15,296 bases of DNA, taken from contig JAKPQT010000177.1 in the NCBI GenBank assembly GCA_029555885.1, positions 1-15,296 of the forward strand, in the 5' to 3' direction. Positions within the stretch are counted from its first letter, which is position 1, and each line of letters starts with the position of its first letter. Origin of the DNA: Chloroflexota bacterium (lineage in GTDB: Bacteria > Chloroflexota > Anaerolineae > CG2-30-64-16). The position numbers and the translations under genes were made by a program. Shown piece by piece: positions 1 to 14,999 of the stretch. The notes beneath the pieces were generated by a model. That model saw only the letters and a list, made by a program, of their open reading frames with translations, had not been told where the DNA came from and did not search any database.

Positions 1-2132
1 TGACCGAACCCGATCGACCGCTGGCAGACCTGCCGCTGCTCTCGGAGGCCGAGCGCCAGCAGATCCTGGTCGCCTGGAACGACACGGCGACCGAACTTCC
101 CGCCGACCCACGCGTCCATCTCCTGTTCGAGGCGCAGGTCAACCGCACACCCGACGCGACCGCCCTGCTCTTTGCCCGCGCAGAGGCCGGCCTGCCCGAC
201 GTAAGCCTCACTTACGCAGAGCTCAACGCACGCGCCAACCAGCTCGCACACCACCTGCGCAGCCTGGGCGTCGGCCCGGAGAGCATCGTCGCCATCTCCG
301 TGGATCGCTCGCCCGAAATGATCATCGGGATGCTCGGCGTTCTCAAAGCCGGCGGCGCCTACCTGCCGATCGACCCCACCTATCCGGCCGACCGCATCGC
401 GTACATGCTGGCCGACTCTGGCGTGCAGATCGTGCTCACCCAGGCGCGCGTCCTGGAAGCTGGAAGCTGGAAACTGGAAACTGGAAGCTGGAAACTGGAA
501 GGCGGCGACGGAAGCCGGCAAGGCAGGCTGGTGCGCCTGGATGCCGACTGGCCCGATATCGCGCGCCAACCGACAACCAATATTCCTAATTCCCAATTCC
601 TAATTCCTAATTCGTTGGCCTACGTCATCTACACCTCCGGCTCCACCGGCCGGCCCAAGGGCGTCATGCTGCACCATCGCGGCCTGTGCAACCTGGTGCT
701 GGCCCAGACACGCGCCTTCCGCGTGACGCCGGAGTGCCGGGTGCTCCAGTTCGCGTCCTTCAGCTTCGATGCATCCGTCTCCGAAACCTTCATGGCCCTG
801 CTGACCGGCGCAACGTTGGTGCTGGCCCCGCAGGCCGTGCTCTCTTCGCCGGATGACCTGGCCGCGCTGCTGCGCGCGCGGCAGATCACCACGGTGACGC
901 TGCCGCCTTCGCTGCTCAAGGTGCTCTCGCCGGACTGCCTGCCTGCGCTGCACACGATCATCTCAGCCGGCGAGCGCTGCACGCCTGAAGCTATCGCGCG
1001 CTGGCTTCCGGGCAGGCGCGTCTTCAACGCCTACGGCCCTACCGAGGCGACCATCGGTCCCACCCTGGGCCTGGTGACCGGCCTGGACGAGGACGCCGTG
1101 AACGTGCCCATCGGCCGGCCCATCGCCAATGCGGCTATCTACCTGCTGGACCGGGCCGGTCAGCCCGTGCCGGTCGGCGTCCCCGGCGAGGTATACATCG
1201 GCGGCGCGGGCGTGGGCCGCGGCTATCTCGGCCGCCCCGACCTCACCGCGGAGAAATTCGTGCCGAATCCGTTTTCCCGGATTGTAGATAGCAGATTGAA
1301 GATTGCAGATTCGCCGGCGACAGGCACGCAATCTTGGCGCAGCCGAGCTTCGCACATCTTCAATCTTGGCGCAGCCGAGCTTCGCACATCTGCAACCCGT
1401 CTCTACCGCACCGGCGACCTGGCCCGCTGGCTGCCCGATGGGCGCATCGAATACCTGCGCCGCATCGACGACCAGGTGAAGGTGCGCGGGTTCCGCATCG
1501 AGCTGGGCGAAATCGAAGCCACCCTGGCCCGCCACCCGAACCTGTCGGGCGTGGCCGTGATGGTGCGCGAGGACGAACCCGGGCAGCGCCGGCTCGTCGC
1601 GTATGTCGTGCCTGCCCAGGAGCCTGCACCCACCGTCACCGAGCTGCGCAGCTTCCTGCTGGAATCGCTGCCCGAATACATGGCGCCGGCCGCGTTCGTC
1701 ACGCTGGATGCGCTGCCCCTCACCCCCAACGGTAAGGTGGACCGCCGCGCCCTGCCCGCACCAGAGGCCGCGCGGCCCAACCTGGCCGCGGCTTATGTGG
1801 CCCCGCGCACGGCGGCTGAGGAAAAACTCGCCGCCATCTGGGCCCGGATTCTCGGCGTCACGCAAGTGGGCATCCACGACAACTTCTTCGAGTTGGGCGG
1901 CGACTCCATCATCAGCATCCAGGTGATTGCCCAGGCGGTGCAAGCCGGCCTGCGTCTGACACCCAAAGACCTGTTCCTGCACCCCACCGTGGCCGAGTTG
2001 GCCGAAGTGGCTGCCACGGCAGCCGTGGCCTCGGAAGCGCCATCCGCCCCATCCTCCGGCGACGCGGCCGATGACTTCGGGTGGAGCCAGGACGACGTGG
2101 ACGATATCCTTTCCGCCTTGGGAGACTTGTAG
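1..2132 (+). CDS. NRPS, 3' part: C/A linker - adenylation - PCP (5' truncated by window)
   Basis: C-terminal part of a nonribosomal peptide synthetase. The frame is open from base 3, so the GTG at 300 is internal. It opens in a typical condensation-to-adenylation linker (LPLLSEAERQQILVAWND). The A domain follows: A1 LTYAELNARANQLAHHLR, A2 AGGAYLPIDPTYP, A3 YTSGSTGRPKG (about 630-662), A5 NAYGPTE (1026-1046), A7 LYRTGDLARW and A10 PNGKVDRRALP. The carrier domain motif FFELGGDSI has its phosphopantetheine serine at codon 1905-1907. Aligned by eye to GrsA, the specificity residues read D-A-S-T-I-A-A-I-G-K, close to published Tyr/Phe codes, so an aromatic amino acid is the best guess. The usual Gly of YLGRID is Arg here (YLRRID). 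The protein ends in an acidic amphipathic tail (FGWSQDDVDDILSALGDL), a likely docking segment for the next NRPS. There is no E or TE domain. Two loops carry 7-bp repeat insertions. Confidence 0.96.
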   Translation, partial: TEPDRPLADLPLLSEAERQQILVAWNDTATELPADPRVHLLFEAQVNRTPDATALLFARAEAGLPDVSLTYAELNARANQLAHHLRSLGVGPESIVAISVDRSPEMIIGMLGVLKAGGAYLPIDPTYPADRIAYMLADSGVQIVLTQARVLEAGSWKLETGSWKLEGGDGSRQGRLVRLDADWPDIARQPTTNIPNSQFLIPNSLAYVIYTSGSTGRPKGVMLHHRGLCNLVLAQTRAFRVTPECRVLQFASFSFDASVSETFMALLTGATLVLAPQAVLSSPDDLAALLRARQITTVTLPPSLLKVLSPDCLPALHTIISAGERCTPEAIARWLPGRRVFNAYGPTEATIGPTLGLVTGLDEDAVNVPIGRPIANAAIYLLDRAGQPVPVGVPGEVYIGGAGVGRGYLGRPDLTAEKFVPNPFSRIVDSRLKIADSPATGTQSWRSRASHIFNLGAAELRTSATRLYRTGDLARWLPDGRIEYLRRIDDQVKVRGFRIELGEIEATLARHPNLSGVAVMVREDEPGQRRLVAYVVPAQEPAPTVTELRSFLLESLPEYMAPAAFVTLDALPLTPNGKVDRRALPAPEAARPNLAAAYVAPRTAAEEKLAAIWARILGVTQVGIHDNFFELGGDSIISIQVIAQAVQAGLRLTPKDLFLHPTVAELAEVAATAAVASEAPSAPSSGDAADDFGWSQDDVDDILSALGDL
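453..501 (+). repeat. Seven tandem heptamers CTGGAAR inside A domain 1 (upstream of A3)
   Basis: Seven consecutive 7-bp units (CTGGAAG or CTGGAAA), 49 bp with no interruption. They encode AGSWKLETGSWKLEG, which has no counterpart in ordinary A domains. The array sits in the variable segment between core motifs A2 and A3, where extra residues are usually tolerated. Confidence 0.95.
582..613 (+). repeat. ATTCCYA heptamer array inside A domain 1 (just before A3)
   Basis: Units ATTCCTA, ATTCCCA, ATTCCTA, ATTCCTA and a partial ATTC. It is an AT-rich island in GC-rich coding DNA and encodes the IPNSQFLIPNS stretch directly before LAYVIYTSGSTG. The same array recurs at 4061-4092 in the second A domain. 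Confidence 0.95.
1280..1312 (+). repeat. GATTGNA heptamer array in the A6-A7 loop of A domain 1
   Basis: Units GATTGTA, GATAGCA, GATTGAA, GATTGCA and a partial GATTC. It lies between A6 (GYLGRPDLTAEKFVPNPF) and A7 (LYRTGDLARW). With the following 32-bp-period repeat it lengthens this loop to roughly 40 residues, where typical A domains have about ten. Confidence 0.9.
1329..1391 (+). repeat. 31-bp direct repeat (period 32) in the A6-A7 loop of A domain 1
   Basis: A 31-base unit at 1329-1359 is repeated exactly at 1361-1391. It starts CAATCTTGGCGCAGCCGAGC and ends TTCGCACATCT. Because the period is 32, not a multiple of three, the two copies are translated in different frames: first as SWRSRASHI, then as LGAAELRTSA. 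The ends of the copies resemble the reverse complement of the GATTGAA/GATTGCA heptamers at 1280-1312. Confidence 0.95.
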
Positions 2133-2143
2133 AGGATTGCAGC

Positions 2144-5100
2144 GTGGATAAGTCACAGCCCACAGCAGCACCGCAACCCGACGCAGCGGCCGCCAAGAAC
2201 ATCGAAAGCTTTTACCCGCTCTCGCCGATGCAGCAGGGCATGCTCTTTCACAGCCTGTTCGCGCCGGAGTCCGGCGTCTACGTGGAGCAGCTCAATACTA
2301 CCCTGCGCGGCCGGTTGGACATCCCCGCGTTCGAGCGCACCTGGCAGCGCGTGGTGCAACGCCATCCCATCCTGCGCACCGCGTTCGCCTGGGAGGGACT
2401 GAAGGAACCCATCCAGGTCGTGCGCCGCGAGGTCAATATGACTATCGCACAGGAGGACTGGCGCGGGCTGGACCCGGCCGAGCAGCAGCGCCGGTTGGCC
2501 GCCTTCCTCCCGGCGGAGCAGGCTCGGGGCTTCGACCTGACCAAGGCGCCCCTCATCCGCCTGGCCCTGTTGCGGCTGGCCGACGACGCCTACGAGTTCG
2601 TCTGGACCCACCACCACATCCTGCTGGACGGCTGGTCCATCCCGCTGCTGCTGCGCGAGGTCTTCGCCCACTACGACGCGTTCAGTCGCGGCCAGGACCT
2701 GCACCTGCCCGCGCCGCGGCCGTTCCGCGACTACATCGTCTGGCTGAGGCGGCAGGACATGGCCCAGGCCGAAGCGTATTGGCGCCGCACCCTCAAGGGC
2801 TTCACCGCACCCACGCCGTTGACCGTCGGCACATCCGCGCCTGACGCCGGCGAAGCCGTGGCCCACGGCGAGTTGGAGGCGCATCTGCCCGCCGACCTCA
2901 CGGAGAAGCTCACCGCCCTGGCACGCCAGCACCGGCTGACGCTGAACACTCTCGTCATGGCCGCATGGGCGCTGCTGCTCAGCCGCTACAGCCGCGAGGA
3001 GGATGTGCTGTTCGGCGCCACCGTCTCAGGACGGCCCGCAGACCTGCCGGGGGCCGAGAGCATGATGGGGTTGTTCATCAACACCCTGCCGGTGCGTGTC
3101 CATGTGCCGCCCGCAGCAGAACTCCTGACCTGGCTGCGTGAATTGCAGGCCCAGCAGGCCGAGCTGCGCCAGTACGAATACACCCCGCTGGTCGAAATCC
3201 AGGGCTGGTCCGAGGTCCCGCGCAGCCTGCCGCTGTTCGAGAGCATCCTGGTCTTCGAGAACCTGCCGCTGGGCCCGGTCACTGCCGGCGGCGCAGGCCG
3301 CGGCGCGCTGGAGGTCGCCGACGTGCGCAGCGCCTCGCATACCAACTACCCCATTACCGTTGTCGCGGTCCCGGATCGCGAGATGCTGCTGCGCCTCTCT
3401 TACGACAAGGCGCGCTTCGACCCAGCGACCATCGAGCGCATGATGGGCCACCTGCGCAGCCTGCTGGTCGGCTTCGCGGAGGACCCGAACCGCCAGTTGC
3501 ACCAGTTCCCGCTCCTGACCGCAGCCGAGCGCCACGCGTTAATCACGCGCTGGGATGCCACGGCCAGGCAGTTCCCTGCCGATGCAACCATCCATGGCCT
3601 GTTCGAGGCCCAGGCAGCGGCCACGCCCGACGCCATCGCCCTCAACCTGCCGTCGGTCGAGGCGTACACCTCGGCGCTGGATACGCTCCCACCGGCGCCT
3701 GCCGGCGTCGCGCTGACCTACGGCGAGCTGAACGCGCGCGCCAACCAGTTGGCCCATCACCTGCGCGGGCTGGGCGTGGGACCGAACGTGCTGGTTGCCA
3801 TGTACGTGGACCGTTCCATCGAGATGGTGGTCGGCATCCTCGGCATCCTGAAGGCCGGCGGCGCTTACGTGCCCATCGACCCGATCTATCCCGCCGAGCG
3901 CATTCAGCACATCCTGGCCGACTCCGGCGCACAGATACTCATCACACAGGATCACCTGACGGCAGACGGCCGGTGGCGGGTGGCAGATGGCGGGTGGCGC
4001 GGAACCGTGGTGCGGCTCGACTCAGACTGGCCCGCCATCGCGCACCAACCGACAACCAATATTCCTAATTCCCAATTCCTAATTCCTAATTCGTTGGCCT
4101 ACGTCATTTACACCTCCGGCTCCACCGGCGTGCCCAAGGGCTGCGGCATCACCCACGCCAACGTCGTGCGGCTGTTCCGGGCCACCGAGCACTGGTATGG
4201 CTTCGATGCGGCAGACGTCTGGACCCTGTTCCATTCCTATGCCTTCGATTTCACCGTGTGGGAGCTGTGGGGCGCACTGTTCTACGGCGGGCGGCTGGTA
4301 GTGATCCCCCACGCGATCACGCGTTCGCCCGAAGCATTCTACCGATTGTTGTGTGCGGAGCGCGTCACTGTCCTCAACCAGACGCCCTCCGCGTTCCGGC
4401 AGCTCATCCGCGCAGAAGAAGCCGTCGGAGTCTGCCCCGACCTCGCGCTGCGTTACGTCATCTTCGGCGGCGAGGCGCTTGAGCTGCAGAGCCTGCGCCC
4501 GTGGTATGCGCGCCACGGCGACACGCGGCCGAAGCTCGTCAATATGTACGGCATCACCGAGACCACGGTCCATGTCACCTACCGACCGCTAAGCCTGGCC
4601 GATGTCGAGGCCGGCAAAGGCAGCGTCATCGGCGTGCCCATCCCCGACCTGCGGGTGTATATCGTGGATGCCAACCTGGAGCCGGTCCCCATCGGCGTCC
4701 CCGGCGAGCTGGTCGTGGGCGGCGCGGGCGTGGCGCCCGGCTACCTCAACCGGCCGGAGCTGACCGCGGAACGGTTCGTGCGAAACCCCTTTGAACCGGT
4801 TGCAGGTTCCAGGTTGAAAGTTGAAGGTAATGCCCTGGCCTACGAGCAACCTGCTAACTTTGAACCTGCCAACTTGCCACACCTCTACCGTTCCGGCGAC
4901 CTGGCGCGCTATCTGCCCGACGGCGACATCGAATACCTGGGGCGCATCGACCACCAGGTGAAGATTCGCGGCTTCCGCGTCGAGCTGGGCGAGATCGAGA
5001 CGCTGCTGGCGCAGCATCCCGGCATCCGTGAGGCCATCGTGCTGGCCCGGGAGGACACCCCCGGCCACAAACGCCTGGTGGCCTACTGCGTGCCCAACCG

Positions 5101-6973
5101 CGCTGCGACACCGGCCCTGAGCGAGCTGCGCGACTTCCTGGCCGCGAAGCTGCCCGATTACATGGTGCCCGCAGCGTTTGTCATGCTCGACGCCCTCCCG
5201 CTGACCGCGCATGGCAAGGTCGACCGCAAGGCGCTCCCTGCGCCCGACGAGGGCCGGCTGGCAGTAGAAACGGCCTACGTAGCCCCGCGCAATGAGACCG
5301 AGGCGCAGTTGGCTGCGATCTGGGCGCAGGCGCTGGGCGTGCCGCGGGTCGGCATCCGCGACAACTACTTCGAGTTGGGCGGCGAATCCATCCTCAGCCT
5401 GCAGATTATCGCCCGCGCCAAAAAGGCGGGCATCGAGTTCAGCCCGCGCCAGCTCTTCGAACACCCCACCATCGAGGCGCTGCTGGTCGCGCTCCAGGGT
5501 GCGCGGGACATCATGGCTGAACAGGGGGTCGTCACCGGACCGGCGCCGCTGACCCCGGTGCAGCAGTGGTTCTTCGAGCATCACCCGGCGTACCCCGAGC
5601 ACTTCAACACCTCCATGCTGCTGCTCACCTGGCCCGAGGTGGACCTGGCCGCGCTGCGCGGCGCTCTGGCTGCCCTGTTGACCCACCACGACGCGCTACG
5701 GATGACCTTCGCCCGCACGGACGCCGGCTGGCAGCAGACCAACGCCGACCTGCCTGTCGATGTGCCATTCGACATCGTTGACCTGTCGGGCCTGGAGCCG
5801 GAAGCACAGGAAGCCGCCCTGACCGCCCGGACAGCAGCCTTGCAGGCCGGCTTCCGCCTGGATGGCGCCGGGCTGCTGGTTCACGCCGCGCACTTCAATC
5901 TCGGCGCCGGCAGGCCGGGCCGGCTCCTGTTGGCATTCCATCACCTGGTGGCCGACGGCGTCTCGTGGCGCATCGTGCTCGAAGACCTGACCACAGCCTA
6001 TCGGGCGCTGCGCCGCGGCGAAATGCCCGGCAGCCTCATGCTGCCGCCCAAGACCACCGCCTATCGTGATTGGGCCGCGCGACTGGCGGAATACGCCGGC
6101 TCACCGGCGCTGCTGGCCGAGGCCCCCTATTGGCGCGAACTGGCCGCACAGCCGGTCGCGGCGCTGCCGGTGGACCACCCGGGCGGCCGCAACACCTACG
6201 GCACCACAGACGATATCACCCTGTCCCTCAGCGCGGCAGAAACGCAGGCGCTGCTGCAAGAGACGCCTGCGGCCTACGGCACACAGATCAACGACCTGCT
6301 GCTGACGGCCCTCGCGCGAACGTTCGCGGCCTGGACCGGCTCCCCGCGGCTCCTCGTGGAGATGGAGGGTCATGGCCGCGAGGACCTCTTCCCCGATATA
6401 GACGTCTCGCGCACGGTCGGCTGGTTCACCAGCATCTTCCCCGTGCTGCTCGACCTGGGCGGCCCAACTGACGGGTCATCGGGGACCGAACGCCCCGCAA
6501 TCCTGGGCAACCAGATCCAGGCCGTCAGGGACCAGCTCCGCCGCGTACCGAACCGCGGCGTCGGCTACGGCATTCTGCGCTATCTTGCAGCCGACCCCGC
6601 GCTGCGGGCTGCACTGGCGGCTGCTCCCGCGCCACAAGTGAACTTCAACTACCTGGGGCAGTTCAACCCGCTCATCTCCGAGGCGGATGACGCAGCCGAA
6701 TCCGCAGTCGAGACGACCGATCCCGAGGCGTGGGCCTTCCTGGGGATCGCGCCCGAGGCACCTGGCCCCGAGCAGGCGCCCGATGCGCCCCGCAGCGCGC
6801 TGCTCTACGTGGTCTGTGTCGTCACTGATGGCGGTATGGATGTCCGCTGGCTCTACAGCCCCGAGCTCTTCGAACGCAGCACCATCGAGCGGCTGGCAGA
6901 GGCCTATCTGCGCGAAGTGCGCAGCATTATCGCCCACTGCCAGGCACAACTCTCTGGAGGAATACGTGGATAA
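2144..6973 (+). CDS. NRPS, single complete module C-A(Thr)-PCP-E
   Basis: Complete NRPS of about 1609 residues. The start is taken as GTG 2144, twelve bases after the upstream stop and behind AGAGGA; an in-frame ATG at 2081 would overlap the upstream gene by 52 bp. The C domain has LSPMQQGMLFH near the N-terminus and active-site HHILLDG at 157-163. The A domain has TSGSTG at 657-662, and its specificity residues read D-F-W-N-I-G-M-V-H-K, the classic threonine code. The PCP motif FELGGESI has its phosphopantetheine serine at about residue 1082. A full epimerisation domain follows: HHLVADG 1266-1272, EGHGRE 1408-1413, RTVGWFTS, VPNRGVGYG and NFNYLGQ 1500-1506. It should therefore load L-Thr, condense it with the upstream peptidyl-PCP and epimerise it. 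No release domain is present. Both A-domain loops carry 7-bp repeats as in the upstream NRPS. The stop overlaps the next gene by 8 bp. Confidence 0.97.
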   Translation: MDKSQPTAAPQPDAAAAKNIESFYPLSPMQQGMLFHSLFAPESGVYVEQLNTTLRGRLDIPAFERTWQRVVQRHPILRTAFAWEGLKEPIQVVRREVNMTIAQEDWRGLDPAEQQRRLAAFLPAEQARGFDLTKAPLIRLALLRLADDAYEFVWTHHHILLDGWSIPLLLREVFAHYDAFSRGQDLHLPAPRPFRDYIVWLRRQDMAQAEAYWRRTLKGFTAPTPLTVGTSAPDAGEAVAHGELEAHLPADLTEKLTALARQHRLTLNTLVMAAWALLLSRYSREEDVLFGATVSGRPADLPGAESMMGLFINTLPVRVHVPPAAELLTWLRELQAQQAELRQYEYTPLVEIQGWSEVPRSLPLFESILVFENLPLGPVTAGGAGRGALEVADVRSASHTNYPITVVAVPDREMLLRLSYDKARFDPATIERMMGHLRSLLVGFAEDPNRQLHQFPLLTAAERHALITRWDATARQFPADATIHGLFEAQAAATPDAIALNLPSVEAYTSALDTLPPAPAGVALTYGELNARANQLAHHLRGLGVGPNVLVAMYVDRSIEMVVGILGILKAGGAYVPIDPIYPAERIQHILADSGAQILITQDHLTADGRWRVADGGWRGTVVRLDSDWPAIAHQPTTNIPNSQFLIPNSLAYVIYTSGSTGVPKGCGITHANVVRLFRATEHWYGFDAADVWTLFHSYAFDFTVWELWGALFYGGRLVVIPHAITRSPEAFYRLLCAERVTVLNQTPSAFRQLIRAEEAVGVCPDLALRYVIFGGEALELQSLRPWYARHGDTRPKLVNMYGITETTVHVTYRPLSLADVEAGKGSVIGVPIPDLRVYIVDANLEPVPIGVPGELVVGGAGVAPGYLNRPELTAERFVRNPFEPVAGSRLKVEGNALAYEQPANFEPANLPHLYRSGDLARYLPDGDIEYLGRIDHQVKIRGFRVELGEIETLLAQHPGIREAIVLAREDTPGHKRLVAYCVPNRAATPALSELRDFLAAKLPDYMVPAAFVMLDALPLTAHGKVDRKALPAPDEGRLAVETAYVAPRNETEAQLAAIWAQALGVPRVGIRDNYFELGGESILSLQIIARAKKAGIEFSPRQLFEHPTIEALLVALQGARDIMAEQGVVTGPAPLTPVQQWFFEHHPAYPEHFNTSMLLLTWPEVDLAALRGALAALLTHHDALRMTFARTDAGWQQTNADLPVDVPFDIVDLSGLEPEAQEAALTARTAALQAGFRLDGAGLLVHAAHFNLGAGRPGRLLLAFHHLVADGVSWRIVLEDLTTAYRALRRGEMPGSLMLPPKTTAYRDWAARLAEYAGSPALLAEAPYWRELAAQPVAALPVDHPGGRNTYGTTDDITLSLSAAETQALLQETPAAYGTQINDLLLTALARTFAAWTGSPRLLVEMEGHGREDLFPDIDVSRTVGWFTSIFPVLLDLGGPTDGSSGTERPAILGNQIQAVRDQLRRVPNRGVGYGILRYLAADPALRAALAAAPAPQVNFNYLGQFNPLISEADDAAESAVETTDPEAWAFLGIAPEAPGPEQAPDAPRSALLYVVCVVTDGGMDVRWLYSPELFERSTIERLAEAYLREVRSIIAHCQAQLSGGIRG
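3972..3999 (+). repeat. GGTGGCG heptamer array inside A domain 2 (upstream of A3)
   Basis: Units GGTGGCG, GGTGGCA, GATGGCG, GGTGGCG. It sits at the position equivalent to the CTGGAAR array of A domain 1 but has a different unit sequence, and encodes part of DGRWRVADGGWRG. Confidence 0.8.
4061..4092 (+). repeat. ATTCCYA heptamer array inside A domain 2 (just before A3)
   Basis: Same four-and-a-half units as at 582-613. It is embedded in a 63-base stretch (4045-4107) identical to 566-628 of the upstream NRPS gene. Confidence 0.95.
4798..4877 (+). repeat. Inverted heptamer arms in the A6-A7 loop of A domain 2
   Basis: Left arm 4798-4828: GGTTGCA, GGTTCCA, GGTTGAA, AGTTGAA, GGT. Right arm 4847-4877 holds reverse-complement-type units CAACCTG, CTAACTT, TGAACCT, GCCAACT. 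The arms are separated by about 18 bp and could form an imperfect hairpin in DNA or mRNA. The insert encodes the extra residues between FVRNPF and LYRSGDLARY. Confidence 0.85.
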
Positions 6974-8285
6974 GCCGACCCGGCTGTGGAACCGGAATTT
7001 CTCCATCCTGTGGCAGGCGCAGTTCGTCAGCCGCCTGGGCCGGCAGGCCTTCAGCATGGCGATGGTACTGTGGATCATGCAGGCCACCGGCTCAGCCTCG
7101 CTGATGGGCGTGTTGTTGGCGGTGTCATCGCTGCCGGGGCTGGTCCTCAGCCCCATCGGCGGTGCAGTGGCCGATCGCGTATCCCGCCGCACCATCATCG
7201 TGTTGAGCGACTTCCTCAGCGGCCTGGTCACACTGGGACTTGGCGTGCTCCTCCTGCTGTACCCGCAAAACACCAACGCCGGGTTAGTGGGGTTGTTCGT
7301 GGCCTCGCTGACGTTGGGAACGCTGGGCGGGTTCTTCAGCCCGGCCATCTCGGCCGCAATCCCCGATATCGTGCCGGCCACCCGGCTGCCGGGGGCCAAC
7401 TCCATGGGGCAGATATCGTCGCAGGTGACGCTCTTCATCGGCCAGGGGCTGGGCGGCACCGTGTTCCGCCTCATCGGCGCGCCGTTCATGTTCATCTTCA
7501 ACGGCATCACGTTTCTGTACTCGGCCACCTCAGGGTATTTCGTCCGCATCCCGCCGCCCGCTCGCCGGGAGCCGCAGAAACTGAGGGCAGTCCTGGCCGG
7601 GTTTCGAACGGACCTGGCAGAGGGGCTGCGCTACATCTGGCGCAACCCCGGCCTGAAGGCACTGGTCTTGCTCTCAGCGGCCAGCAGCTTCTTCGCCACC
7701 CCCTTCGTCGTCCTGCTCCCGTTCTACGTTGAGGGATCACTGCGCGCGCCGGTGGACTGGTACGGCTTCATCCTGGCTGCCTTCGGCGTCGGCTCGCTGT
7801 TGGGGTTCGTCCTGGCCGGTGTAGCCAGCCTGCGCGGTCAAAAGCGTGCTACGGTGCTGATCGTCGTCATGCTGCTGGATGCCGTTTTCTACGGGCTGCT
7901 GGCGCCGGTGCGCACGCCGGTCCTCGCGCTGGTGATGGCAACCCTGGCCGGCCTCACCGGCGGCTTCGTGACGGTCAACATCACGACCCTGTTGCAGTTG
8001 GGCACGCCGACCGAGATGCGCGGGCGCGTCTTCGGCTTGCTGAGCACCATTGCCGGCAGCGTGACGCCCATCGGCACGGGGCTCTCCGGCATCGTGGCGG
8101 ACCTCACGGGCAAACGCATTCCACTGATTTTCGCGCTCAGTGCGCTGGCGCTGTTTGCTATCTCTGCACTCCTGGCTGCGAATCGCAACATCCGGGCGTT
8201 TCTTGCCACGGACCCGCAGCCACCACCGCAGGCGCCACTATTCCTGGAGAGCGCCGCTCCCGCGGGGCACGAGATTAAGGCATAA
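6966..8285 (+). CDS. MFS exporter (EntS-like / MFS_3 type)
   Basis: Integral membrane transporter of about 439 residues, rich in hydrophobic helices and probably of the 12-helix major facilitator type. The cytoplasmic loop between helices 2 and 3 has the family signature GGAVADRVSRR (residues 65-75). Sequence character and cluster context fit the drug/siderophore exporter branch typified by enterobactin exporter EntS. The start is GTG 6966, with GGAGG at 6956-6960 five bases upstream, overlapping the NRPS stop by 8 bp. A longer in-frame reading from 6687 would lie wholly within the NRPS gene and is rejected. Likely role: export of the finished peptide and self-protection. The substrate is inferred from context only. 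Confidence 0.9.
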   Translation: MDKPTRLWNRNFSILWQAQFVSRLGRQAFSMAMVLWIMQATGSASLMGVLLAVSSLPGLVLSPIGGAVADRVSRRTIIVLSDFLSGLVTLGLGVLLLLYPQNTNAGLVGLFVASLTLGTLGGFFSPAISAAIPDIVPATRLPGANSMGQISSQVTLFIGQGLGGTVFRLIGAPFMFIFNGITFLYSATSGYFVRIPPPARREPQKLRAVLAGFRTDLAEGLRYIWRNPGLKALVLLSAASSFFATPFVVLLPFYVEGSLRAPVDWYGFILAAFGVGSLLGFVLAGVASLRGQKRATVLIVVMLLDAVFYGLLAPVRTPVLALVMATLAGLTGGFVTVNITTLLQLGTPTEMRGRVFGLLSTIAGSVTPIGTGLSGIVADLTGKRIPLIFALSALALFAISALLAANRNIRAFLATDPQPPPQAPLFLESAAPAGHEIKA

Positions 8286-8294
8286 GGCAGAACG

Positions 8295-9371
8295 ATGGAC
8301 ACATTGATCGGTTTTTCCTTCACCACATGGCTCAGGCTGCTGGCAGAGAACCGCTTTGCGGTAGACTGGAGCTATCGTGATCGCTGGTTGACGGTGACCC
8401 AGATGAGCCTGCTGAACTCGTTTGGCCGCCGACGCGAAAACCGGCGTTTCGGCGCGCAGGTCGCGGGCACGAAGGTCGAGGCGCCGGTCTTCATCCTGGG
8501 GCATTGGCGCAGCGGCACGACCCTGCTCCACAACCTGCTGATCAACGACCCGCAGTTTGCCTATCCCAACCTGTTTCAGACCACACATCCCCTGACCATG
8601 CTGGTGCGCGAGGAGATGATCGAGAACGCGCTGCGGGATGCTGAGGCTCACGGCCGGCCCATGGACAACATGCAGATTACCTTCCGCAGCCCCGGCGAGG
8701 ACGAAGCCGCGCTGGCGGTGTTGAGCCTGCGCTCGCCGCTCATCGGCTGGCTCTTTCCGCGCCGCGAGGCCCACTATGACCGCTACCTCACCTTCCGGGA
8801 TGTGCCTGAGGCCGACCGGCAACGCTGGGAAGATGCACTGCTATTCTTCATGCGCAAGCTGACGTTTCGTTACAACAAGCGACTGCTGCTCAAGTCGCCG
8901 CAACACACGGGGCGTGTGCGCCACCTGCTGCGGCTGTTCCCCGACGCACGGTTCATTCACATTCACCGCGACCCGTACACCGTCTTCCGCTCGACGCAGC
9001 GCCTCTTTGCCAGGGCGGTGCCAGAAGCCTATCTCCAGCAGCCGCTCCCCGGCGGCCACGATGAGGGGATCCTGCGCCGCTACCGGGCGATGTATACGGT
9101 ATTCTTTGAGGATCGCGACCTGATTCCTGCCGGGCAGTACGTCGAGGTCGCATACGAGGATCTCGAACACGACATGCTGGGTGTGGTGGCACACATCTAT
9201 GACACGCTGAACCTGCTGGGATTCGCTAAGATGCAGCCCGCGCTGCAACAATACGTGGACTCGCTATCCGACTACCAGAAGAACGTTCACGACGCGCTGC
9301 CTGAGACACTCCGCCAGCGCGTCGCCGAGGCTGCCCATGACTGCTTTGCGGCGTGGGGCTATCCGCGGTGA
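8295..9371 (+). CDS. PAPS-dependent sulfotransferase family protein
   Basis: 358-residue cytosolic enzyme of the Sulfotransferase_3 type. The 5'-phosphosulfate-binding loop is GHWRSGTT (residues 69-76, preceded by PVFIL). The 3'-phosphate-binding region is HIHRDPYTVFRST (222-234), and LLLKSPQHTGRV (about 197-208) is typical of the family. It would transfer sulfate from PAPS to a hydroxyl or similar group. In this cluster the plausible acceptors are the predicted aromatic (Tyr-like) or Thr side chain or a lipid/glyceryl cap added upstream; the sequence does not tell which. ATG 8295 lies nine bases after the MFS stop, with AAGG just upstream. No PAPS-synthesis gene is in the window. Confidence is high for family and low for acceptor. 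Confidence 0.9.
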   Translation: MDTLIGFSFTTWLRLLAENRFAVDWSYRDRWLTVTQMSLLNSFGRRRENRRFGAQVAGTKVEAPVFILGHWRSGTTLLHNLLINDPQFAYPNLFQTTHPLTMLVREEMIENALRDAEAHGRPMDNMQITFRSPGEDEAALAVLSLRSPLIGWLFPRREAHYDRYLTFRDVPEADRQRWEDALLFFMRKLTFRYNKRLLLKSPQHTGRVRHLLRLFPDARFIHIHRDPYTVFRSTQRLFARAVPEAYLQQPLPGGHDEGILRRYRAMYTVFFEDRDLIPAGQYVEVAYEDLEHDMLGVVAHIYDTLNLLGFAKMQPALQQYVDSLSDYQKNVHDALPETLRQRVAEAAHDCFAAWGYPR

Positions 9372-9374
9372 TTT

Positions 9375-9403
9375 TCGACAAAGCCGGCTTTCGCAAATAT
9401 ACT
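9375..9403 (+). promoter_or_regulatory. Possible internal sigma70-type promoter before the TEII gene
   Basis: TCGACA (9375-9380), a 17-base spacer, then TATACT (9398-9403) in a locally AT-rich patch spanning the end of the sulfotransferase gene. Expected transcription start is near 9410, which coincides with an in-frame ATG, so any transcript would be leaderless. This is a pattern match only and could be chance. Confidence 0.25.
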
Positions 9404-10177
9404 ATGCCTATGGTCACAGCAACATCCAACAACACCTGGCTTTCCATGCCGCGGCCAAACCCTGCAGCAAAGGTTCGCCTGTTCTGTTTTCCTTACTCCG
9501 GGGCCGCTGCCTCGGTGTTCTACCCGTGGGCAGATGTCTTGCCCGCGACCATCGAAGTCTGTCCCGTCCAGCTTCCCGGCCACGGCACGCGCCTCGCAGA
9601 GCCGCTGCATGACCGTCTGGACCCGTTGGTGGCCGCGCTGGCGGACGGGCTGGCACCCTACTTCGACAAGCCGTTCGCCTTCTTCGGCCACAGCATGGGT
9701 GCACTGCTGAGCTACGAGCTGGCGCGCTTGCTCCGGCGTCGAGGTCTCAGCCCCGTGTATCTGTTCGTGTCGGGTCACGGCGCGCCGCACCTGCCGGACC
9801 GCAACCCGCCCCTGCACCAGCTCCCTGACGGTGAGTTCGTGGCGAAGTTGCGCGAGCTCAACGGGACACCGGAAGAGGTTCTGCAGCACGCAGAGCTGCT
9901 GCAACTGCTGACCCCGATCCTGCGCGCGGATTTCGCCGTGTGCGAGACTTACGCATATTCAGCGGCGCCGCCGCTGACCTGCCCGATCTCGGTCTACAGC
10001 GGACTGGGCGATGGCTACGTGAACCGTGAAGAACTGGAGGGCTGGCGCGAGCAGACGACCGGCACATTCGTGCTCCGGCTGTTCCCTGGCGACCACTTTT
10101 ACCTGAACACCGCGCGCCATTACCTGTTGCAGGCTCTGGTCCGCGATCTCGACGCTGTCCTCATACTCGGCCGCTGA
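9404..10177 (+). CDS. Type II thioesterase (NRPS editing, alpha/beta hydrolase)
   Basis: Stand-alone thioesterase of about 257 residues, the usual TEII size. Numbering from ATG 9404: conserved start VRLFCFPYSG, nucleophile elbow GHSMG with Ser97, acid Asp203 in GLGDGYV, and His231 in GDHFYL, so the catalytic triad is complete. TEIIs hydrolyse misprimed or stalled acyl groups from PCP domains; occasionally they assist release, which could matter because the NRPS here has no TE. The start is uncertain: GTG 9353 would overlap the sulfotransferase, ATG 9404 and ATG 9410 both fit the family N-terminus, and none has a clear ribosome-binding site. Confidence 0.93.
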   Translation: MPMVTATSNNTWLSMPRPNPAAKVRLFCFPYSGAAASVFYPWADVLPATIEVCPVQLPGHGTRLAEPLHDRLDPLVAALADGLAPYFDKPFAFFGHSMGALLSYELARLLRRRGLSPVYLFVSGHGAPHLPDRNPPLHQLPDGEFVAKLRELNGTPEEVLQHAELLQLLTPILRADFAVCETYAYSAAPPLTCPISVYSGLGDGYVNREELEGWREQTTGTFVLRLFPGDHFYLNTARHYLLQALVRDLDAVLILGR

Positions 10178-10192
10178 CGGAAGTTGCGAAGT

Positions 10193-11962
10193 ATGGACGC
10201 TGCTGAACGCACTCGTGACATCTACGAGCAGATCACGGCCTATCCCAAGCCGCCCTTGGTCCCGCTGCCCGGGCCCAATGAGATCGACGCGTTGCTTGCA
10301 GCCAGCGGGTGGCCTCCCGGCAGCGCGGGCAACCGCATCTCTTGGGCGGCATTTGCACTGACCGGGATCAAGCCATTCCTGCGCCGCCTCCCGGACCACC
10401 AGGAGCAGTGGATGCGTCGCTGTGACCAGCGCGGTGCCTGGCTGTTCGCCCCGCTGGTATCAGCCACAATCGCGCTGGAGGATGATCGCCGAGGGCTGAC
10501 CCCCGTGGAACGAGCCGCCACACTGCTGCATGGGGCGCGTTCCCTGCATTGGGACCTGTACGCCGGCCGGCTGCCGCCCGACACCTATCGCGGCCAGCCC
10601 CTTGAAATGGGACAATACCCGAACCTCTTTGCAACCACCCTGATCGTTGAAGGTCGACGTGCGCGCATTTTCAAGAGCAGCCGGCTGGGACAGGTGACGG
10701 TGGTGGTACGAAATCGGCTCTACCTGCTGGATATCGGACAGCCCGGTGATGAAGCGCCGGTTTCCCAGATCATCCAAGGGCTACAGACAATCGTCGAACT
10801 GGCACACGCGCAGGGACCGGCAGATGACACGACCGCGCCGGGCCTTTTGACCTGTGCAAGTCATGTCACCCAGTGCAGGCTCTTTCCGGAACTCAGCCGG
10901 GACGCCAGCAACCGTGCAGCCCTGGACACGCTCCGACACAGCTTCGTGACCCTCTGCCTCGACCTGGACGATGCACCGGCTACATACGCCGAGGCCCTGC
11001 ATCATGCCCACGCAGGTCGGCCAGCAAACCGGTGGTGGCACGCCAGCCTGCAACTGGTCGTAACGGGCAATGCCAAGGCCTGCGCCATCTGCAACTTCAA
11101 CGCATACCTGGATGGCAATGTGATGATGCGGGGTGGAGCCGAAATCCAGCAACGTGCAGCTGCGTGCGTAGTAAGCCCGTCCGACCAGGCCATTCAACCG
11201 CATCCGGCGCCACCGATTGAACTGAAATGGTCGCTCCGGCCAGAATCCACGCACCGGGCGCAGCGCGATCTGGCACCCTTCCTGGATAGCCAACAGGCCA
11301 CCTTCGCCATCGAGGGGCTGGGAAGCACCTTCTTCGCCGCGCACAAGGTGGATGCGATTCCGGCCTTCGTTCTGGCACTTCAGATGACCGCTGTCCGCCT
11401 GAGCGCTGAGCCAGCGAAGATCACGCAGTTCTTGACTATGTCGCGCTATCGCTGTATGGATCTCACTACGGCAACAGTAACTACCCCGGAAGTGCTGCGC
11501 TTTGTGGACTACATGCAGGCTGGGACAGTTGACCGCGCCGAAGCGCGCGCGGCGATGCAAACGGCGATTGCAGCTCAGGTGGAGCGTTGTCGCTTGGCGC
11601 GAGAACGCCTTCCGCTGGAGGACATTATTGGTCTGGCGATATTCGCCAGACGTGGGCTGGCTCGTGCATATACCTCGGCGATATTTGTTCTGCGCGCTTT
11701 GTCATTGCAATGGCTCGGCGGGGTCAAAAGAGCCGGTCGCGATATTATCATCTCACATCCGGAGATCCAGCCTGCGATTCCGCTTGTCGGCCGGCCCGGG
11801 GTGCGTCTGCCCTATGTTCGCCACTTCGCATTGCACTATCAGATGTGGCCGGATAAGATCATCGTTACGTTCATGCCAGGCATGCACTGGAAAATCCCCA
11901 ATGCACAACTGGTCGCGGAGCTGGAGACGGACCTGCGCCGGCTGCAGGCGCTCATTGCGTAA
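10193..11962 (+). CDS. Divergent carnitine/choline acyltransferase-like protein, catalytic His apparently lost
   Basis: Protein of about 589 residues, the usual length of the carnitine/choline O-acyltransferase family. Family-like segments in order: YPNLFATTLIVEG with a following VVVRNRLYLLD strand (141-180); NRWWHASLQLVV (279-290), matching the family's NRW(F/W)xxSxQ; NFNAYLDG (301-308) at the active site; SRYRCMDL...TTPEVLRFVDYM, matching the family STRRFRHGRT...PE region; and a C-terminal ALHYQMWPDKIIVTF strand. Where the family has EHSxxDG with catalytic His, this protein shows F-N-A-Y-L-D-G, so His aligns with Asn303. It may be inactive, use another base, or have changed chemistry. ATG 10193 follows GGAAG; a TTG at 10184 is an alternative. 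Base composition looks somewhat less GC-rich than the NRPS genes. Family assignment is by eye and moderately secure; role unknown. Confidence 0.7.
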   Translation: MDAAERTRDIYEQITAYPKPPLVPLPGPNEIDALLAASGWPPGSAGNRISWAAFALTGIKPFLRRLPDHQEQWMRRCDQRGAWLFAPLVSATIALEDDRRGLTPVERAATLLHGARSLHWDLYAGRLPPDTYRGQPLEMGQYPNLFATTLIVEGRRARIFKSSRLGQVTVVVRNRLYLLDIGQPGDEAPVSQIIQGLQTIVELAHAQGPADDTTAPGLLTCASHVTQCRLFPELSRDASNRAALDTLRHSFVTLCLDLDDAPATYAEALHHAHAGRPANRWWHASLQLVVTGNAKACAICNFNAYLDGNVMMRGGAEIQQRAAACVVSPSDQAIQPHPAPPIELKWSLRPESTHRAQRDLAPFLDSQQATFAIEGLGSTFFAAHKVDAIPAFVLALQMTAVRLSAEPAKITQFLTMSRYRCMDLTTATVTTPEVLRFVDYMQAGTVDRAEARAAMQTAIAAQVERCRLARERLPLEDIIGLAIFARRGLARAYTSAIFVLRALSLQWLGGVKRAGRDIIISHPEIQPAIPLVGRPGVRLPYVRHFALHYQMWPDKIIVTFMPGMHWKIPNAQLVAELETDLRRLQALIA

Positions 11963-12017: not shown

Positions 12018-12266
12018 ATGGCCTGGGATGACCAAGAAGACACCACTATCTACCGGGTGGTGGTTAACCATGAAGAACAATACTCCATCTGGCCGGTGGA
12101 TCGCGATATTCCGTTCGGGTGGCGCGACGCGGGCAAGAGCGGCCCGAAGGCCGAGTGCCTGGCGCACATCAAGGAAGTGTGGACGGATATGCGCCCGCTG
12201 AGCCTGCGCAAACAGATGGAGGCTGCCGCCAAACTCCAGCAGGACGAGGGGCAGCAAGACCAATAG
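12018..12266 (+). CDS. MbtH-like protein (A-domain partner)
   Basis: 82-residue MbtH-family protein. It shows the hallmark residues: [10 protein letters not shown] (17-26), PFGW (32-35), the G-K-S-G-x-K loop (39-44), ECL (46-48) and [10 protein letters not shown] (54-63). These small proteins bind the A domain of an NRPS and improve its folding or activation rate; one or both A domains here are likely partners. The gene is complete, with a perfect ribosome-binding site. Its stop TAG shares one base with the GTG start of the PPTase gene, so the two are probably translationally coupled. Confidence 0.97.
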
Positions 12267-13072
12267 TGACAGCCGCACCGGAGATTCCTGGAGTCGCATG
12301 GCTGCCGCCGTCCGGCCAGGCTGACCTGCCAAAGCAAACCGTTCATGTCTGGCAGATTAGCCTGGCTGCACAGGAGGATACCGTCCGGCATCTCGCCGCA
12401 GTGCTCGCCGCGGACGAGCAGGCGCGCGCAGCCAGGTTTAACTTCGCCCAGGATAGCCGCCGGTATATCGCGGTGCGCGGCGCACTGCGCCTGCTCCTGG
12501 CCGGTTACCTGCACCAGGTCGCCGGCACATTGCGCTTCGGCACCACGGAGTACGGCAAGCCGTTTCTGCTGCGCGCTGATGGCCTGCCGGACACGGAAAT
12601 CGCCTTCAATGTCTCACATTCACACGAGTTGGCGCTGCTCGCCTTCACGCGCGGCATGCGCGTCGGCGTCGATGTGGAGCGTGTGAGGCCGGAACTGGCA
12701 GAGGGTCATATCGCCGAACGGTTCTTCTCCCCGCGCGAGGTGACTGTCCTGCGCGGGTTGCCCCAGGCCGAGCAACCGGCCGCCTTCTTCCGCTGCTGGA
12801 CGCGGAAGGAGGCCTTCGTCAAGGCCCGCGGTGAAGGTCTCTCCCTGCCGCTGCACAGTTTCGACGTTTCGCTGGCCCCTGACGAACCCGCGGCCCTGCT
12901 CGACGTGGCAACCGACCCGGCCGAGGCCCAGCGGTGGACCCTCCGTGCGCTGACCCCCACTCTCCCCGGCTACATGGCCGCGCTCGCCGTCGAAGGCCGC
13001 GACGTCGCCCTAGCCTGCTACCAGGTAGCGGAGCTCGCACTCCTATCCAGGCTGGCTCGCGCCGAGCAATAG
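12266..13072 (+). CDS. Sfp-type 4'-phosphopantetheinyl transferase
   Basis: Protein of about 268 residues that transfers phosphopantetheine from CoA to the serine of carrier domains, here the PCPs of both NRPSs. Motifs: NVSHSHELALLAF (115 onward), Mg/CoA-binding GVDVE (124-128) and WTRKEAFVKARGEGL (168 onward), all as in the Sfp/Gsp group. GTG 12266 overlaps the MbtH stop by one base; a longer in-frame ORF from 12119 would lie inside the MbtH gene and is rejected. It is the last gene of the array and is followed by a hairpin terminator. The cluster is therefore self-sufficient for carrier-protein activation. Confidence 0.95.
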   Translation: MTAAPEIPGVAWLPPSGQADLPKQTVHVWQISLAAQEDTVRHLAAVLAADEQARAARFNFAQDSRRYIAVRGALRLLLAGYLHQVAGTLRFGTTEYGKPFLLRADGLPDTEIAFNVSHSHELALLAFTRGMRVGVDVERVRPELAEGHIAERFFSPREVTVLRGLPQAEQPAAFFRCWTRKEAFVKARGEGLSLPLHSFDVSLAPDEPAALLDVATDPAEAQRWTLRALTPTLPGYMAALAVEGRDVALACYQVAELALLSRLARAEQ

Positions 13073-13152: not shown

Positions 13153-13629
13153 CTAGCGACGGCGTCGCCAGATGAGAGCTGAGCCGACCAGCGCGCTGAC
13201 CGCGGCCACGGCTCCCGCACCCAGGGGTAAGCCGGCGCCCGTGAAGCTGCTCAACGAGACCGCGTTCGGCCCCGTGTTGGTGTTCCCTGGCTCGCAAGGA
13301 TAGACCTGCACGCCGCCGCCGCCAGCGGGCGGCACATAGCACACATATGGGTCTGGGTCGCCGCTGGGCCCGGCAGCCGGGTCAATCGTGCAAGTCAGCT
13401 TGGATGGTGACCCTATCGGGATTAGCCATGAACCGTCGGGATTGATAGTGCCCGACCCCACGGAAATCCCGGTCGAGTCCTGCACGCAATCGACCGTCCC
13501 ACCGTGCGTCCACGGATCCCCATAAGCATCGTTGACCTGGCCCTCCACGGCAGTATAGGCCAGGACTACGGGAACGGCCATGAACAACATGGCGGCTACC
13601 AATAAAACCAGGACCGAACTTCGTCTCAT
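13153..13629 (-). CDS. Small secreted protein with C-terminal membrane anchor
   Basis: 158 residues. The N-terminus is a clear signal peptide (MRRSSVLVLLVAAMLFMAVP, cleavage near VLA/YTA). The middle is a short beta-rich domain beginning VEGQVNDAYGDP, similar in style to carboxypeptidase-regulatory or CnaB-like folds, with four cysteines and a Gly/Pro-rich stretch. The C-terminus is a hydrophobic helix (VAAVSALVGSALIW) ending in RRRR. That tripartite end resembles a sortase or exosortase anchoring signal, but no LPXTG is visible (LPLGA precedes the helix). The start is supported by a GGGGGTG purine run just upstream on the minus strand. I do not recognise a specific family. It probably sits on the outer face of the membrane and has no evident link to the NRPS cluster. 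Confidence 0.8.
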   Translation of the reverse strand: MRRSSVLVLLVAAMLFMAVPVVLAYTAVEGQVNDAYGDPWTHGGTVDCVQDSTGISVGSGTINPDGSWLIPIGSPSKLTCTIDPAAGPSGDPDPYVCYVPPAGGGGVQVYPCEPGNTNTGPNAVSLSSFTGAGLPLGAGAVAAVSALVGSALIWRRRR

Positions 13630-13704
13630 AGAGCACCCCCTTCTAATGATGTGGTGAGTCAGCCATCCCTGCCGGGCAAGCGCACTGCCCTAAATGAATT
13701 CTGT

Positions 13705-13726
13705 CGTTAGCCGCTTACGCCTAACG
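13705..13726 (-). terminator. Possible stem-loop at the stop of the secreted stalk protein gene
   Basis: CGTTAG (13705-13710) pairs with CTAACG (13721-13726). The stem continues with two more pairs across one mismatch to a CTTA loop, and one arm contains the stop codon of the minus-strand gene. The sequence after it on the minus strand is AT-rich (AGAATTCATTT) but not a true T-run. It could be a weak terminator. Confidence 0.35.
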
Positions 13727-14914
13727 CACGACGATGGGCAACCAGACCTTCTGCAGGGACCTGGTCGCCGTCGCAGTTGCAGTAGGCGTCACAGTCACAG
13801 TCGCTGTCGAAGTTTCAGTCGCCGTCGGTTCAGCGGTCGCCGTCGGTGTCGTGGTCGGGGTCGCAGTCACAGTCGGTGTCAGCGTTTCGGTGGGCGTTTC
13901 GGTGACAGTCGGTGTAACCTCCAGTGTTTCGGTCTGGGTGGGTGTGGCGGTCGCGGTCTCGGTCGCAGTCGGCGTCACGGTGGGCGTTTCGGTCGGTGTC
14001 TCAGTTGGCGTTACCGTCGGGGTGTTTGTCGGCTGCAGCCGGACGCCGAAATTGATGATCGGACTTTGCCCGGTAGCCAGCGTCACCTGGACGGAGGTTG
14101 GCGTGGTCGGGATATAGCCGGCGGGTATCTGTGCGCTCACCGCATACGAACCAGGCGTGATATCGAAGATCTCGTACCAACCGGAAGGCGCGGTCGTTAT
14201 GCCCTGCATCACAACCTGATCGGCCTGCTTGAGTTGAATCGTCACCAACGACAGCCCAGCCTGCTCATCTGCCTCCCGGAAGCCGTTGCCGTTGGCATCG
14301 ATGTATACATAGCCGCGCAAGTAGGGCAGAACCTGGACAGTGACCCAATCCATCCGCGAGACAGAGGTGCCGGCCGCGTCCTTTGCCTCCCAAGTGGCGA
14401 TGTTCGTGACGTTGCTCGTCACGGGCGCATTCGGATTTTCGCCGATGAACCCGATTTGGCCGCCCGGATTGACGTAAATGATCTCCGGCCCCCAACCGCC
14501 CAGCTTGTCGTCGTTGAAAGTATGGGTCACAAAGGTCGTCGTGCCGATATTGGCGAAGAAGTAGCAGTAGGTGACGTTCACGCCATACTTGACGGTCAGC
14601 GCCTCGACCGAGCCTGCGCAGCTCTGCGTCTGCTCGTAGTCCGTGGTGAGCATGACCTTCTTGTTGAAGGTGAAGTCGGCTGCAGCAGGACTTTGGGCCG
14701 CGTCAGCCTGGCGGCCCGACTCCTCCGCAGGCTCCAACCAGTAGAAAGACCCGAGGCCTGTTGCAGAGATGCGCGCCGCAGCGCCATCCCCCGCCGGTTC
14801 CGCCTGCATCGCAGCAACCGGCGCGGCGCGCACACTTAGGAACACGATCCCTACCAATACTGAGGCGACCAACGCGGCTATCAGCCACCCGCCAGTCCGA
14901 AGATTCAAGGTCAT
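13721..14914 (-). CDS. Secreted protein: SdrD_B-like domain, Thr/Pro stalk, LPIVVR tail
   Basis: About 397 residues. Start ATG 14914 has GGGAGTG six bases upstream; an ORF start at 14992 lacks such support. Regions in order: N-terminal hydrophobic signal/anchor (LIAALVASVLVGIVFLSVRA); a unique domain of about 170 residues with an NVTYCYFFANIGTTTF segment; an SdrD_B/CnaB-like beta domain (GYVYIDANGNGFREADEQAG ... GWYEIFDITPGSYAV); a Thr/Pro/Glu-rich low-complexity stalk of roughly 90 residues; and a terminal VWLPIVVR. Such tails after TPT stalks are common in secreted Chloroflexota proteins and may be a surface-sorting signal, although their function is not established here. The calcium-binding-like DANGNG motif suggests an extracellular structural or adhesive role. 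Ligand unknown. Confidence 0.88.
   Translation of the reverse strand: MTLNLRTGGWLIAALVASVLVGIVFLSVRAAPVAAMQAEPAGDGAAARISATGLGSFYWLEPAEESGRQADAAQSPAAADFTFNKKVMLTTDYEQTQSCAGSVEALTVKYGVNVTYCYFFANIGTTTFVTHTFNDDKLGGWGPEIIYVNPGGQIGFIGENPNAPVTSNVTNIATWEAKDAAGTSVSRMDWVTVQVLPYLRGYVYIDANGNGFREADEQAGLSLVTIQLKQADQVVMQGITTAPSGWYEIFDITPGSYAVSAQIPAGYIPTTPTSVQVTLATGQSPIINFGVRLQPTNTPTVTPTETPTETPTVTPTATETATATPTQTETLEVTPTVTETPTETLTPTVTATPTTTPTATAEPTATETSTATVTVTPTATATATRSLQKVWLPIVVR
13763..14036 (-). repeat. Low-complexity Thr/Pro-codon repeat tract
   Basis: Degenerate tandem repetition of ACN/CCN/GTN/GAA codons on the minus strand, encoding TPTETPT, TATPT and TPTVT-type units. Its skewed composition creates long false open frames on the plus strand (for example a Val/Gly/Ser-only reading). 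Confidence 0.85.
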
Positions 14915-14999
14915 CACATGCACTCCCTGGATATCATCTGTATGCTGGCACGGCTGCTCGTGGCAACGTCCGCTGTGGCGCAATCGCAGCACCAGACCG

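Follow-up and report, generated by a model that had tools for sequence, protein, structure and literature searches.

The 15,296-nucleotide stretch analysed here in full (the window) is contig JAKPQT010000177.1 of the Chloroflexota bacterium assembly GCA_029555885.1. Within a nonribosomal peptide synthetase (NRPS) operon of peptide-antibiotic type it carries an intact open reading frame (ORF; 10193..11962, plus strand) encoding a 589-residue protein, P0001, with the carnitine/choline acyltransferase fold and no catalytic His. A start at the ATG at 10193 agrees with the N-terminal pattern of the family, MxxxERTRDIYEQI, and a TTG at 10184 is likewise in frame. The protein matches PF00755 with an E-value of 1.5e-38 and a score of 133 bits, above the curated cut-off of 22.3, and in a fold comparison the CPT/ChAT fold spans its whole length. 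A first-pass annotation had assigned the protein to this family while allowing that the fold similarity might prove undetectable; the assignment is upheld and the similarity is readily detected. Its description as free-standing also stands, as the protein is a separate ORF and not a C-terminal fusion to a highly reducing polyketide synthase (HR-PKS). A database protein (P0002) is 100% identical to it, with a cluster record that names five contigs, and a search of plasmids and viral contigs for a mobile origin gave no match. Several homologs are annotated at source as choline/carnitine O-acyltransferase, a label that is probably misleading.

The His of the EHSxxDG motif is a textbook feature of the carnitine/choline acyltransferase superfamily. 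At its counterpart the window protein reads FNAYLDG (residues 302–308; 11096..11116, plus strand). Comparison of the family profile (101 of 120 rows used) with 13 vertebrate CrATs in hhalign places N303 on the catalytic His343 of mouse CrAT and D307 on Glu347, the Glu/Asp position, whereas the gap placement of HMMER puts F302 at the catalytic position instead; neither residue is a His. This agrees with the earlier report of a His-less motif and narrows the question it raised, which residue replaces the His, to N303 by one alignment and F302 by the other. A search with the window protein returned 191 homologs at E ≤0.001. An alignment of 120 rows was made from 120 of these, with P0002, the window's own protein, dropped and P0001 set beside the 119 others. 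None has His at 302 or 303; His is found at 301 in one row (P0091) and at 305 in five. Adding the proteins of 16 loci gave 136 rows, which were not deduplicated (P0009 is probably the L036 protein), and His is again absent from 302 and 303 in all 136. Position 302 is Phe throughout, and position 303 is Ser in 57 rows, Asn in 35, Thr in 35, Asp in four, Gly in three and Ala in two, so that a small polar residue (Ser, Asn or Thr) is present in 127. The surrounding family motif is C-N-F-[STN]-[AT]-Y-L-D-G-N-x-M-x-R, with D307 kept in 132 rows, G308 and M311 in 136 and R313 in 135, and 68 positions are conserved at 95% or more over rows down to about 30% overall identity. With the distant copy L041 as query, a further search yielded nine proteins, of which eight were new identifiers (P0242 is L041's own); FxxxxDGNxMxR and SHP are present in 8/8 of these and HYQ, by pattern, in 6/8. 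The whole family shares the lack of this His, which is not a chance loss.

We found no canonical His-bearing copy of PF00755 in the same groups, among 40 genomes of the phylum of genome G002 and 400 from the G004 phylum. In the G002 phylum PF00755 matched at 12 places in 9/40 genomes, every one of them also recovered by our family search (A1), which also picked up a C-terminal fragment in G439 as one further place; in the G004 phylum the match lay in G004 only. Counted with the centre genome included, and with the large searches scoring the first few candidates per genome (e.g. three), the gene occurs in 9/40 genomes of the G002 phylum (a group that includes G003), 1/400 of the G004 phylum, 2/10 of the G005 order, 1/294 of the G001 class, 1/6 of the G004 order and 1/96 of the G001 order. 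The altered protein is kept, highly conserved, in several bacterial phyla.

The extreme C-terminus aligns poorly by sequence, and residues 1–523 were therefore folded alone so that the last aligned pair gives the register. The predicted model has a pLDDT of 92.0 (73 in its last block), and residue 523 pairs with CPT2 592, mouse CrAT 556 (535 in 1nm8 numbering), COT 546, human ChAT 542 and rat ChAT 552, over 23 CPT2, CrAT, COT and ChAT rows. Mouse CrAT 552–554 reads STS (letters checked), so S521 would lie on Ser554, the last Ser of STS, if the final residues are ungapped. At the same register it would also meet the STS Ser of CPT2 and of human ChAT, which we take to be residues 590 and 540. 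S521-H522-P523 (11753..11761, plus strand) would then correspond to the last part of STS, with Ser in 135/135, His in 133/135 and Pro in 135/135 of the rows that have a residue there. The two residues preceding S521 are aliphatic in nearly all rows, as opposed to the Ser-Thr of STS, and only the last Ser is apparently kept. H522, a nearly invariant His, directly follows it and is thereby a candidate for the different active-site His that the first-pass annotation allowed for. Alignment and model together suggest that the family retained one STS Ser and set a nearly invariant His directly beside it. A further family-specific motif, H548-Y549-Q550 in the C-terminal hairpin (11834..11842, plus strand), is conserved in 133, 135 and 134 of 136 rows respectively, and R80 and Q412 are also fixed in the family.

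The substrate determinants have changed as well. We take Lys419 and Lys423 of CrAT to be anchors of the coenzyme A (CoA) 3'-phosphate, and Tyr452 and Thr465 to be carnitine residues. In the hhalign comparison Ser378 and Ala382 of the window protein fall on the two Lys, a pair that is not kept, while T411, itself variable, falls on Tyr452 and L424 on Thr465. Across the 136 rows a basic residue occupies the Lys419 column in 94, the Lys423 column in 21 and both in 13. Taken together, the absent His and the lost determinants for CoA and carnitine speak against the textbook reaction.

The operon around the gene opens with an NRPS gene of A-PCP organisation whose 5' end lies outside the window (3..2132; AMP-binding, AMP-binding_C and PP-binding matches). 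A second NRPS gene follows (2081..6973, the limits of the ORF, with the true start further in), which reads C-A-PCP-E without a thioesterase (TE) domain; it matches two Condensation stretches, A and PCP, and the second Condensation stretch and its motif point to the E domain (HHILLDG, HHLVADG; HHLVADGVSW). Downstream are a major facilitator superfamily (MFS) exporter (6966..8285), with a probable GTG start at 6966 behind GGAGG, and a sulfotransferase (8295..9371; Sulfotransfer_3, E 2.9e-37) with weak matches to 2z6v and 2zq5 (both uncharacterised) and 4gox ('Polyketide synthase'). The His-less gene was originally noted as embedded between a type II thioesterase (TEII) gene and an MbtH gene, and these do lie on either side of it, TEII at 9353..10177 (PF00975, E 2.8e-50) and MbtH at 12018..12266 (PF03621, E 3.6e-23). 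A 4'-phosphopantetheinyl transferase (PPTase) gene comes last (12266..13072), presumably starting at the GTG at 12266 of an ORF that opens at 12119. All of these genes are on the plus strand, separated by short gaps or overlapping, and between 6900 and 13200 there is no excess of promoter-like sites (1, against 1.1 in shuffles) or terminator-like sites (2, against 3.8). No TE domain was found within the window, which opens inside an NRPS gene and so covers the assembly line in part. Two minus-strand genes lie beyond the operon (13153–13629 and 13721–14992, the second SdrD_B-like), and locus L036 has homologs of both in the corresponding place, so synteny reaches past the NRPS operon. A 381-residue plus-strand ORF (13694–14839) antisense to the SdrD_B gene has no Pfam match and looks spurious.

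We compared 17 contexts of the gene, the window and 16 loci, of which L002, L003, L019, L040 and L045 are on contigs shorter than 9 kb; the C-terminal fragment L046 is not among the 17. NRPS or polyketide synthase (PKS) neighbours are present at 8/17, the window counted, and the neighbourhood comparison suggested in the first-pass annotation thus did find the same subfamily beside such genes elsewhere. Two of these loci resemble the window closely. At L004 (a Caldilineales bin) the NRPS terminates in E without a TE, and the locus also has a sulfotransferase, an MFS exporter and the His-less protein in one 1182-residue ORF, TEII, MbtH and PPTase. This MFS-acyltransferase ORF (L004:3265-6813) may be a genuine fusion or may stem from an indel in the assembly, and its acyltransferase part has about four EAVTTKEDAPLSSGGFSRP-like repeats inserted in the loop near residue 330. 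L036, from genome G411, which shares its order with the Anaerolineae bin G005, has an NRPS, sulfotransferase, MFS exporter, His-less protein, TEII, MbtH and PPTase, and here a TE domain (residues 1931–2159 of 2186) closes the NRPS. The six-gene package behind the NRPS is shared by the three loci, with 43–82% identity to the window, with or without a TE.

The other five linked loci (L015, L037, L038, L040 and L042) form a second group, and in all five the gene lies between large PKS/NRPS genes. Where Pfam was applied, the upstream gene encodes AT, DH, ER and ACP (with KR in L037 and KS in L038) followed by C-A-PCP, the L040 piece comprising ACP-C-A-PCP only; the downstream gene in L037 and L038 is KS-AT-KR-ACP. 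For L015 and L042 the neighbours were identified from motifs and tblastn. The reducing PKS domains fused to C-A-PCP (L037:1-8994 and L038:10861-19899, both from G002-phylum genomes) include an ACP that matches a fungal highly reducing PKS model, ACP_SdgA_C. We considered the sulfotransferase as a constant partner and rejected it: it is present in 3/3 loci of the window group, and gave no match in the scanned stretches of L015, L037, L038 and L042 and their extensions, a scan that did not cover L040.

Copies away from assembly lines have varied neighbours. An SNF-family (sodium:neurotransmitter) symporter lies beside L002 (by Pfam), L003 and L039 (by membership of the same ORF cluster), and these 448-residue genes of one cluster (L002:111-1457, L039:7601-8947 and L003:2931-4277), all in G002-phylum genomes, are directly ahead of the His-less gene. 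Apart from this symporter we saw no metabolic neighbour common to the copies without NRPS genes: L043 has a trigger factor and a C69 peptidase, L041 PGM and a sigma factor, L044 an M28 peptidase and PEPCK, L017 oligopeptide transporter genes, and L045 ABC-2 and SpoIIE genes. L019 (a Bacteroidota bin) carries, at 2058–8837, genes for APS kinase, a PAPS-reductase-type protein (CysD-like), EF-Tu/APS-kinase (CysNC-like), an inositol phosphatase (CysQ-like) and a 733-residue protein without assignment, the cys names being our reading of the matches; MbtH is matched where the contig ends. This sulfate-activation cassette and the sulfotransferase of the window hint at a sulfated product.

In the best tree the NRPS/PKS-linked rows form two groups, the window with L004 and L036 (support 95/95) and the five others (90/97). 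Linkage needs two changes on this tree and on a wider quick tree, and a single clade of all linked rows is not rejected (p-AU 0.15). The best tree leaves four forks open and contains one long branch (L044) as well as five rows, the window included, whose composition is odd. With no His-bearing copy found in the same groups, and two vertebrate CrATs as the only His-bearing rows of the wider tree, the loss of the His is not placed between close relatives. Asn303 is present in 6/8 linked and 0/9 unlinked loci (Fisher p 0.0023, uncorrected for kinship); the linked loci without it, L004 and L036, both have Thr. A kinship-aware check offers one independent pair on supported branches and two on all branches, too few to test, and we treat Asn303 as a lead, not a test, for a mark of assembly-line members.

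What, then, does the protein do? The function is probably one that nobody has described. Our preferred reading, held tentatively and at somewhat less than even probability, is that the protein is a thioester-handling enzyme that has been rewired and works in trans on intermediates of the assembly line. It draws on the full-length fold, the lack of His in 136/136 rows, the small polar residue at 303 in 127, the 68 positions at 95% or more, S521 on Ser554, the CoA and carnitine determinants that are not kept, the operon retained in the window, L004 and L036, and the 5/5 second-group genes lying between PKS/NRPS genes. Strict conservation of the polar site residues over wide divergence argues, from the alignment, for an active protein, and we infer an enzyme rather than a relic. 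The old two-sided tunnel would take a thioester-bound acyl or peptidyl chain, donated in NRPS/PKS operons by the pantetheine arm of a carrier protein in place of free CoA. S521 would serve as an oxyanion or positioning residue, and the relocated base might be H522 as first choice; failing that, the substrate itself or the D307 side might serve. In the window, a lipopeptide-type product could be acylated on a hydroxyl or amine, or the chain moved on to one, before or after release by TE/TEII, the protein working alongside the sulfotransferase and the exporter and not replacing a TE. A more specific version, in which a new, CoA-independent class of His-less transferases on this fold has shifted its base to the STS strand (S521-H522) and acts in trans on carrier-bound chains of bacterial lipopeptide lines, with Asn303 marking the assembly-line members, is possible but unlikely as a whole.

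Several points weigh against the thioester-handling enzyme. We know of no substrate or activity for any family member. At nine of the 17 loci the neighbourhood has no NRPS/PKS gene; of these, four sit on contigs shorter than 9 kb, where an NRPS could lie beyond the contig. Genomes G002, G414 and G448 each carry one linked copy and a second one away from the cluster, and these second copies and the unlinked loci imply that a carrier protein is not the general partner of the family. The basic residue in the Lys419 column of many rows makes CoA binding possible in other members. H522 may face outwards, since residues next to an inward-facing one on a strand often do, and the block of the model that gives the STS register has a pLDDT of 73.

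An unlikely alternative is a non-catalytic partner, whose fold would bind a synthetase domain or the acyl chain as it grows, and so control chain length, docking or export. It has precedents in the His-independent BAHD-like CER2/GL2 proteins of plant fatty acid elongation and in the X domain in P450 recruitment. However, the polar residues near the site (D307, S521, H522, Q412, R80 and R313) are among the most conserved, beyond what a surface scaffold needs, and the L004 fusion comes from one metagenome bin, with the possible indel noted above. Less probable again is a different chemistry on the same fold (a hydrolase, dehydratase, heterocycle-forming enzyme or other group transfer) belonging to general metabolism and recruited to NRPS operons. 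The varied metabolic genes beside the copies at L002/L003/L039, L043, L041 and L019 fit this proposal, as do C-type folds with other chemistry, such as the dehydratase entry 8s6l among our fold matches, but no neighbour common across the groups would name the reaction.

The first-pass annotation also raised a dedicated release factor standing in for a missing TE, which we regard as improbable. Its premise holds in the window, where no TE was found, and in L004, whose NRPS likewise ends in an E-type domain; moreover, PMC10901484 describes fungal cAT domains that release polyketides as esters. Those domains retain His and Ser, however, members without NRPS neighbours exist, and the same gene set in L036 follows an NRPS that ends in a TE, which argues against a TE substitute. 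The earlier suggestion of a pseudoenzyme, in the sense of decay, does not survive, and the same applies to a sequencing artefact. The absent catalytic residue speaks for either, but the His is absent from all 136 rows, the ORF is intact, the identical database protein spans five contigs, and few parts of the family are as conserved as the altered site; we reject both on that conservation, leaving them the faintest probability of any reading. A branch spanning several phyla has dropped the textbook His yet frozen the rest of the site, so that both whether the fold can catalyse without its base and what a free-standing member does for an NRPS/PKS line become testable.

Searches of open-access literature, some of them covering only the best of many hits, yielded no report of a bacterial His-less PF00755 protein, or of one in a bacterial NRPS cluster, which is not proof of absence, and the accessible part of PMC12184294 does not mention carnitine. 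Among known systems, NRPS condensation-type domains and C-type proteins align with the window protein over only about 300–350 residues, some 18 Z units below the CPT/ChAT rows; condensation domains have HHxxxDG, and the window protein lacks it, its site reading FNAYLDG. Some fungal HR-PKS lines (Tv6-931, LtbA) carry a fused PF00755 cAT domain with catalytic His and Ser, according to PMC10901484 and PMC8582187. The likeness is a PF00755 unit alongside a reducing PKS, as in the second bacterial group, where the gene lies beside synthases with DH, ER, ACP and C-A-PCP; the difference is that the fungal units are C-terminal domains with both residues retained (PMC10901484), whereas the bacterial proteins are free-standing and His-less, with the Ser apparently kept. 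Compared with CrAT, CPT2, COT and ChAT of PF00755, the family lacks the catalytic His, the CoA Lys pair and the carnitine Tyr/Thr, and has instead an aliphatic pair before the kept Ser and new SHP, HYQ and DGNxMxR motifs of its own.
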